From assembly GCF_001047135.2 (NCBI RefSeq), contig NZ_DF968079.1, positions 16,007 to 80,006 of the forward strand: DNA of 64,000 bases, in the 5' to 3' direction. Source of the DNA: Fructobacillus tropaeoli. GTDB lineage: Bacteria > Bacillota > Bacilli > Lactobacillales > Lactobacillaceae. A program made the position numbers and the translations under genes. The notes below the pieces were generated by a model. It was not told where the DNA came from, did not search any database, and saw only the letters and a program-made list of their open reading frames with translations. Below are positions 55,904 to 57,190 of the stretch, piece by piece. Each line of letters opens with the position of its first letter. Position 1 is the first letter of the stretch.

Positions 55904-55907
55904 AGCA

Positions 55908-55955
55908 AAGACTCCGCTCTCCCTATCAACCGATAAGGAAAACGGAGTCTTTTTT
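55908..55955 (+). terminator. Terminator after the amidase gene
   Basis: AAGACTCCG pairs with CGGAGTCTT, with an inner CTATC/GATAAG helix, then a T-run. Confidence 0.88.
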
Positions 55956-56006: not shown

Positions 56007-56067
56007 AAAAAAAACAGCACTCCGAAGAGTGCCGGGTAGGTAGATAGATAAACTACCTCAGTTGGTT
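56007..56067 (-). ncRNA. Candidate small RNA of about 60 nt
   Basis: A complete transcription unit without a protein frame. A promoter at 56074-56102 predicts a start near 56067. The RNA would contain AGGTAG pairing with CTACCT around a loop, then a very stable GCACTC-TTCG-GAGTGC hairpin (56017-56032) and eight Ts (56007-56014). It lies on the minus strand, 240 bases past the end of the dehydroquinase-like gene. I do not recognise the family. Confidence 0.5.
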
Positions 56068-56073
56068 AACAAT

Positions 56074-56102
56074 AGTATAACATCACTAACTTTGTTAGGC
56101 AA
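56074..56102 (-). promoter_or_regulatory. Promoter of the candidate small RNA
   Basis: TTGCCT (56097-56102), exactly 17 bases of spacer and TATACT (56074-56079) on the minus strand. Confidence 0.6.
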
Positions 56103-56296: not shown

Positions 56297-57190
56297 TTAC
56301 GCCCAACCTAATTCACTAATCGTACTTTTAATCAACGGTGTCTGCCAATTTTCCCCTAAGGCTAAGGTGACGAGGGCAGATTGAAAAACAAGCCAAGATT
56401 CAATTTGATCCTTCGAAAGGATACCGGTAACCGTTAACACAAGAGCAGTTTCGCCGGCTCGATCAGCCAAACCGGCTAAAATTAATTCAAAATCAGCTAA
56501 GTCAATTTCAGCTAGTCGATCAGCTGCAACCTGCAAATTCACCACATCCGGATTCTTGGTCAACAAAGCAGAGAAAGCCGCTCGAATTGTTTCTGGCGTC
56601 AAATCATCAATTATTCCCGTTCGAATAACCGGAACAGCCACTTTCTCGGCGACGGCTATGACCTTTTCCTGCAAATTTTCATCCAGTTCCTCTGGCAAGT
56701 AGACTCCGGCAAAACGGTCTGCTCCGGCTTGCAATGCCGTGGCTAAGAAATAAGCCTGGTCAGCCGGCGCTAGTTCTCCCTGACCACCGGCCTCTTTCGT
56801 CGTATAAGCCAGCAAAACCAAGTGATCTCCTGCTGTTTGAAGAGCGTTGTCCACTAATTCCTTGACAATTTGCTGGTGCATAGCCGGCCAATTAGATAGA
56901 AATTCTTGGTGAGCCTGGTCCAATTCTGCCTTCATTACGGCTTTTTTCATCGCGGAAGCGTCTCTTTCTTCAACCGCCTGCGCACCACCGGCCTTAACCT
57001 GGTCCCAAATGACTTCTTTGGAAAACTCATCCACAATGGCATCAGCTTGCCAGATAACAGCATCTGGATTCTTCTGGTCTAACGCCTGCTTGAAGGGGGT
57101 AAATTTATCGGCCGGCCCCAATGCCATCGGAACGGCTAAGGCTGACTGGGCAATTGGCTTTTTCTGTTCAAATAATTCTGTAATTTTCAT
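56297..57190 (-). CDS. Divergent type I 3-dehydroquinase-like protein of unknown function
   Basis: A 297-residue protein whose segments line up in order with AroD-type dehydroquinases: AVPMALG near the N-terminus, NPDAVIWQAD where AroD has DIVEWRAD, YTTKEAGGQGELA where AroD has RTKKEGGE, and SALVTLALGENWQTP where AroD has SALTFG. The catalytic positions look lost: Glu and Arg of EWR are Ile and Gln, and no His or Schiff-base Lys is found in the expected strands. A helical insertion lies around residues 70-120. It may be a non-catalytic or repurposed TIM-barrel protein. The ribosome site is weak. Confidence 0.55.
   Translation of the reverse strand: MKITELFEQKKPIAQSALAVPMALGPADKFTPFKQALDQKNPDAVIWQADAIVDEFSKEVIWDQVKAGGAQAVEERDASAMKKAVMKAELDQAHQEFLSNWPAMHQQIVKELVDNALQTAGDHLVLLAYTTKEAGGQGELAPADQAYFLATALQAGADRFAGVYLPEELDENLQEKVIAVAEKVAVPVIRTGIIDDLTPETIRAAFSALLTKNPDVVNLQVAADRLAEIDLADFELILAGLADRAGETALVLTVTGILSKDQIESWLVFQSALVTLALGENWQTPLIKSTISELGWA

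Follow-up and report, generated by a model that had tools for sequence, protein, structure and literature searches.

The minus strand of the window (the whole stretch of DNA analysed here, 64,000 nucleotides long) almost certainly carries a genuine small RNA (sRNA) gene, which stands alone among neighbours that vary between lineages. Its promoter spacing, RNA core and terminator are conserved in 42 genomes far beyond chance, and the RNA very probably has a real regulatory job. The account that we favour, at a probability of roughly 0.55, is that of a trans-acting regulator which works by base-pairing. The locus comprises the following features:

56097–56102, minus strand: -35-like hexamer TTGCCT, agreeing with TTGACA at 4 of 6 positions and loosely kept in relatives.
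56074–56082, minus strand: extended -10 element TG-T-TATACT, with TG at 56082–56081 and TATACT at 56079–56074.
56007–56067, minus strand: predicted sRNA of 61 nt with its +1 at 56067, a purine in 42 of 42 copies.
56059–56067, minus strand: single-stranded 5' tail AACCAACUG, unpaired in the fold and reading ACCARCUG in 42 of 42 copies.
56038–56058, minus strand: hairpin 1, made up of AGGUAG, the loop UUUAUCUAU and CUACCU, as placed by folding.
56034–56049, minus strand: 16-nt invariant segment AUCUAUCUACCUACCC, identical in 42 of 42 copies.
56007–56034, minus strand: intrinsic terminator with an 8-bp stem, a UUCG loop and U8, in which 7 of 8 pairs show two-sided changes.

The first-pass annotation had read here a TTGCCT/TATACT pair with a 17-base spacer, an RNA of about 60 nt with an AGGTAG/CTACCT stem and a GCACTC-TTCG-GAGTGC-T8 terminator, in a place free of protein frames. 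The window sequence does contain all of these elements, the 17 bases between -35 and -10 included, on the minus strand, and the list of open reading frames holds none of at least 60 amino acids over the RNA. Downstream of the -10 element come AACCAACTGAGGTAGTTTATCTATCTACCTACCC, then a GGCACTC-TTCG-GAGTGCT stem with one additional closing C-G pair, and then T8. In hairpin 1, AGGTAG (56058–56053) pairs with CTACCT (56043–56038); the terminator stem with its TTCG loop occupies 56034–56015, and the T8 follows at 56014–56007. The predicted fold consists of the free 5' tail, the 6-bp hairpin and the terminator, and the energy of the 61-nt RNA, -19.8 kcal/mol, compares with -9.58 +/- 2.51 in 200 shuffles (z = -4.07; 0 of 200 as good), an excess to which the terminator contributes much. 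A 4-kb region of the window has five promoter-like sites; shuffles give 6.2 +/- 2.5. Since the promoter was no better than chance in the window, the window alone could not settle whether an sRNA is encoded there. Minus-strand scoring picks up a further terminator-like hairpin, of 20 pairs, at 55907–55952, in the stretch that separates the sRNA from a convergent amidase gene; the plus strand also has a T-rich tail, and the hairpin may terminate transcription in both directions.

A DNA search covering 60 relatives returned 16 matches, 13 of them in 13 of 13 Fructobacillus genomes (the source genome included) and three in other genera. A covariance model, R1, was built from 15 of these 16 matches, F. 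ficulneus being left out as misaligned, and was used to search 397 family genomes, with matches called strong at E <= 1.9e-10 and listed at E <= 0.1; in the window it matches 56010–56067 (contig 72016–72073). Forty-six genomes had a match at E <= 0.1, of which 42 were strong and four weak. Each of the 42 carries one strong copy, and all of them fall in six genera; the carriers are Fructobacillus, Leuconostoc, Oenococcus, Convivina, L. fallax and one further genus. The three weak matches inspected, one from one of the four weak genomes and two that were second hits, share only a similar terminator. Leuconostoc, searched alone, carries a copy in 19 of 19 genomes and Oenococcus in five of seven, the two misses being drafts that are 65 and 68% complete. 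The sRNA is present in every sufficiently complete Fructobacillus, Leuconostoc and Oenococcus genome searched, and its hosts are known from kimchi, sauerkraut, wine and flowers. Under stricter filters, a sample of 295 genomes from the order gave three matches, all inside the family and none outside. Plasmids and phages had no match to the sRNA, and an origin in a mobile element or phage was rejected on these searches. The pattern ACCA-N11-16-TCTATCTACCTACCC occurred in 31 records among named genomes; 29 of these come from Fructobacillus, Leuconostoc, Convivina, Oenococcus and two further relatives, and the two from Flavobacteriia are taken as chance, about ten chance matches being expected by a rough estimate.

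The anatomy of the RNA was read from an alignment of 42 rows, with covariation counted over 31 distinct sequences. By script, a -10 hexamer is present in 42 of 42 copies, with the extended TG in 29, and it ends 6 nt before the conserved block in 28 copies and 7 nt before it in 13 (41 of 42 together); for L. fallax the script gives 11 nt, and a -10 that is better by eye, TAAACT, lies at 6 nt. Because the edge of the block falls 6–7 nt past the -10 element and its first base is a purine in every copy, the conserved block starts where transcription should start, and the invariant block coincides exactly with the part of the predicted transcript that precedes the terminator. Within the 5' half, ACCA, CUG, GGU and a G are identical in 42 of 42 copies. 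One tail base varies, being A in 37 copies and G in five (Oenococcus), and one base of hairpin 1 is A in 40 and G in two, with a G-U pair preserved.

The two stems behave differently in this alignment. In the terminator, 99.2% of cells are paired and 7 of 8 pairs show two-sided changes in the model-fitted alignment; on a MAFFT alignment of 15 rows, made without model fitting, two-sided changes occur in 5 of 8 pairs and 100% of cells are paired. Its covariation score was reached by 0 of 500 shuffles. In hairpin 1, four of the five counted pairs never vary and the fifth is a G-U in a single distinct row. The same hairpin or an adjacent register is predicted in 7 of 7 sequences folded, and its existence, as modelled, rests on folding and not on covariation. 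That the terminator covaries while hairpin 1 hardly varies indicates a constraint on sequence, not on shape alone. Promoter, stem and terminator are conserved in relatives, the opposite of what would speak against the gene, and the position of the -10 together with the covarying terminator bears out the earlier proposal of an sRNA gene with its own promoter. The UUCG cap ascribed to the terminator is absent from some copies. Comparison and folding together establish the gene, its boundaries, its structure and its conservation.

We infer that the gene is transcribed and that its product acts in trans by pairing. Base-pairing is the commonest mode of trans-acting sRNAs, and it is the mode preferred here. 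A sigma-A-type promoter would start the RNA at 56067 and its own terminator would end it at 56007, giving a layout of a single-stranded 5' tail of 7–9 nt (R-ACCARC-UG), a short hairpin and the terminator hairpin, in which hairpin 1 would hold the invariant AUCUAUCUACCUACC across its loop and 3' arm. First contact with a partner RNA would fall to the free 5' tail, the loop or both; the C-rich 3' arm of the hairpin could then open and lengthen the pairing, and this would alter the translation or stability of the partner. The first-pass annotation had pictured the purine-rich AGGTAG touching ribosome-binding sites, which is unlikely, since Shine-Dalgarno sequences are also purine-rich and AGGTAG forms the 5' arm of the predicted hairpin. 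With 16 bases that never change in an otherwise changing gene, the RNA gives experimenters an easy way into post-transcriptional control in these bacteria.

Complements of the conserved segments were sought in several genomes. In all six genomes searched for a 13-mer complementary to the 3' invariant segment, with at most one mismatch allowed, the sRNA gene itself was the sole match, and a long antisense target was rejected on this result. The exact 9-mer complement of the tail, CAGTTGGTY, has 50 sites in one Fructobacillus genome against 85 for the reversed control and 78 in L. pseudomesenteroides against 70, and is not enriched over that control in either genome. The shared-target test, made on exact 9-mer sites in two species, found no start-codon-proximal tail site common to Fructobacillus and L. 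pseudomesenteroides among the sites examined (50 of 50 and about 70 of 78, respectively). The outcomes of these 13-mer and 9-mer searches weigh against the base-pairing account. Pairing of the 3' segment with rRNA was also rejected, as 31, 22 and 33 of 40 shuffles were as low in energy.

The neighbour genes differ between lineages, which argues for action in trans. In Fructobacillus, the sRNA lies downstream of a gene for a 297-aa protein (window 56297–57190, minus strand). This protein has no Pfam or NCBIfam match and shares 41% identity over 230 residues with the type I 3-dehydroquinate dehydratase (AroD) of Convivina. The motifs EWR, SYHD and VKLAV, present in two intact relatives, are missing from it, and QIES stands where those have SRIE; the catalytic residues of AroD presumably fall within these changed motifs. 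The reading frame is kept in several Fructobacillus species, and its sequence points to a decayed or repurposed AroD-type enzyme. In Convivina, L. pseudomesenteroides and one further genus, the sRNA directly follows aroD; its flanking genes are a Ham1-family gene and tex in L. gelidum, and a UvrD-like helicase gene and rnr-smpB in Oenococcus. At three Oenococcus loci, the modelled sRNA ends 22–24 nt before the script-read start of rnr (which encodes RNase R, with smpB next), and it may work as an attenuator-like element at those loci. A coding role for the sRNA is unlikely: the 61-nt RNA of the window has no ATG on direct reading, and the cores of different species differ by indels of one, two or more bases. 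In some species one reading frame does run through the RNA uninterrupted; a coding leader peptide was rejected because indels break that frame between relatives.

Several other explanations of the locus have to be weighed. Chance assembly of promoter-like and terminator-like sequence, with which the unremarkable number of promoter-like sites would agree, is refuted by the conservation across 42 genomes and six genera and retains a negligible probability. It is very improbable, too, that the locus is just the 3' end of the upstream gene with its terminator and includes no separate RNA. The nearest upstream gene does share the strand of the sRNA at 41 of 42 loci, and the sites listed for the window include no terminator-like one on the minus strand between 56297 and the sRNA; however, that gene varies by lineage and lies on the opposite strand in F. 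pseudoficulneus, a -10 as scored precedes the invariant block by 6–7 nt in 41 of 42 copies, and a plain terminator would not preserve 16 unpaired or half-paired invariant bases. Read-through from upstream, which the first-pass annotation had considered as an account of all signal, may add transcript in most species, the other 41 loci being co-oriented, but given F. pseudoficulneus it cannot be the common source. The main rival to base-pairing is recognition of UAYC repeats by a protein, which is possible although we regard it with some doubt. The partner of the invariant UAUC-UAUC-UACC-UACC and hairpin 1 would then be a protein of the KH-domain, cold-shock or a similar type, which the RNA might, just as tentatively, titrate or guide. 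The four tandem UAYC units would suit such binding, as would a hairpin 1 whose loop and both arms are near-invariant beside a terminator stem free to covary, and the 13-mer search of six genomes gave no long complementary target. The invariance of hairpin 1 fits protein recognition as well as it fits pairing, and so counts against the base-pairing account. The 5' tail, however, is equally conserved, and a repeat-binding model leaves this unexplained.

The same tail suggests a further reading, one that we consider unlikely, in which base-pairing between its ACCARCUGRG and CUCAGYUGGU, the D-arm sequence of precursor tRNAs or tRNA fragments, would let the RNA sense or affect tRNA supply. The tail is complementary to the D-arm consensus of many tRNAs, and the computed energies of the first 16 nt with tRNAs that contain CAGYTGGT are -16.6 to -21.2 kcal/mol. 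Mean energies were taken over 15, 22 and 27 distinct tRNAs of 37, 67 and 46 listed genes in Fructobacillus, Leuconostoc and Oenococcus, respectively. For the mean tRNA energy of the first 14 nt, GC-matched 14-mers from the window were as low in 0 of 400, 1 of 288 and 1 of 288 cases for the three genera in that order, and shuffles in 0, 0 and 2 of 300. CYCAGYTGGT has 69 sites in three genomes, 32 of them in tRNA genes, three in the sRNA and 34 elsewhere; these last 34 were rejected as targets, as they have no gene in common. The A-to-G tail change of Oenococcus, moreover, preserves the tRNA pairing. Against this, the likeness was first spotted by eye and the test was post hoc and on part of the tRNAs. 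When GC content is not matched, 33, 2 and 6 of 700 window 14-mers do as well, and for the best single tRNA 0, 4 and 30 of 300 shuffles do (Fructobacillus, Leuconostoc and Oenococcus in both cases). The D-arm is buried in folded tRNA, and the literature titles and abstract openings searched hold no precedent for a tRNA-directed sRNA. Because of the post hoc test and the buried D-arm, we keep the idea as a lead. If it were true, a clade-wide regulator pairing with a D-arm common to many tRNAs would serve as a tRNA-supply sensor or be titrated by tRNA, with the invariant UAUCUAUCUACCUACC module as its output site; this fuller version is no less improbable.

At the gathering threshold, no Rfam 15 family covers the sRNA in the window or in the loci of four relatives, the only match in the window being a TPP riboswitch elsewhere (RF00059, 17677–17782, minus strand, 69.3 bits). 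Weak matches to L10_leader, suhB and SSRC34_2 (17.0, 15.7 and 20.9 bits, with gathering scores of 44, 41 and 48) were rejected as chance level, and that to SSRC34_2 spans mainly the stretch downstream of the sRNA. The core sequence, in three spellings, had no match in literature text outside subscription journals. In the titles and abstract openings searched, 6S is the only sRNA named for Leuconostoc relatives (PMC8414754). With no match in Rfam and no description in those titles and abstract openings, the RNA represents a previously unlisted sRNA family.

The base-pairing account that we favour invites comparison with two known types of sRNA. RsaE/RoxS are C-rich pairing sRNAs of Firmicutes, and the RNA described here resembles them, as they are generally described, in that its C-rich invariant segment could pair with G-rich mRNA sites. 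It differs in that this segment is CUACCUACCC and not the plain anti-Shine-Dalgarno CCUCC, and in matching no Rfam 15 family. RybB of enterobacteria is a 5'-seed base-pairing sRNA with a hairpin and an intrinsic terminator. To this type, again by its general description, our sRNA is alike in being short and in having its own promoter, a conserved single-stranded 5' end, a hairpin and a Rho-independent terminator, whereas it belongs to another clade and keeps hairpin 1 invariant in addition to its 5' end.
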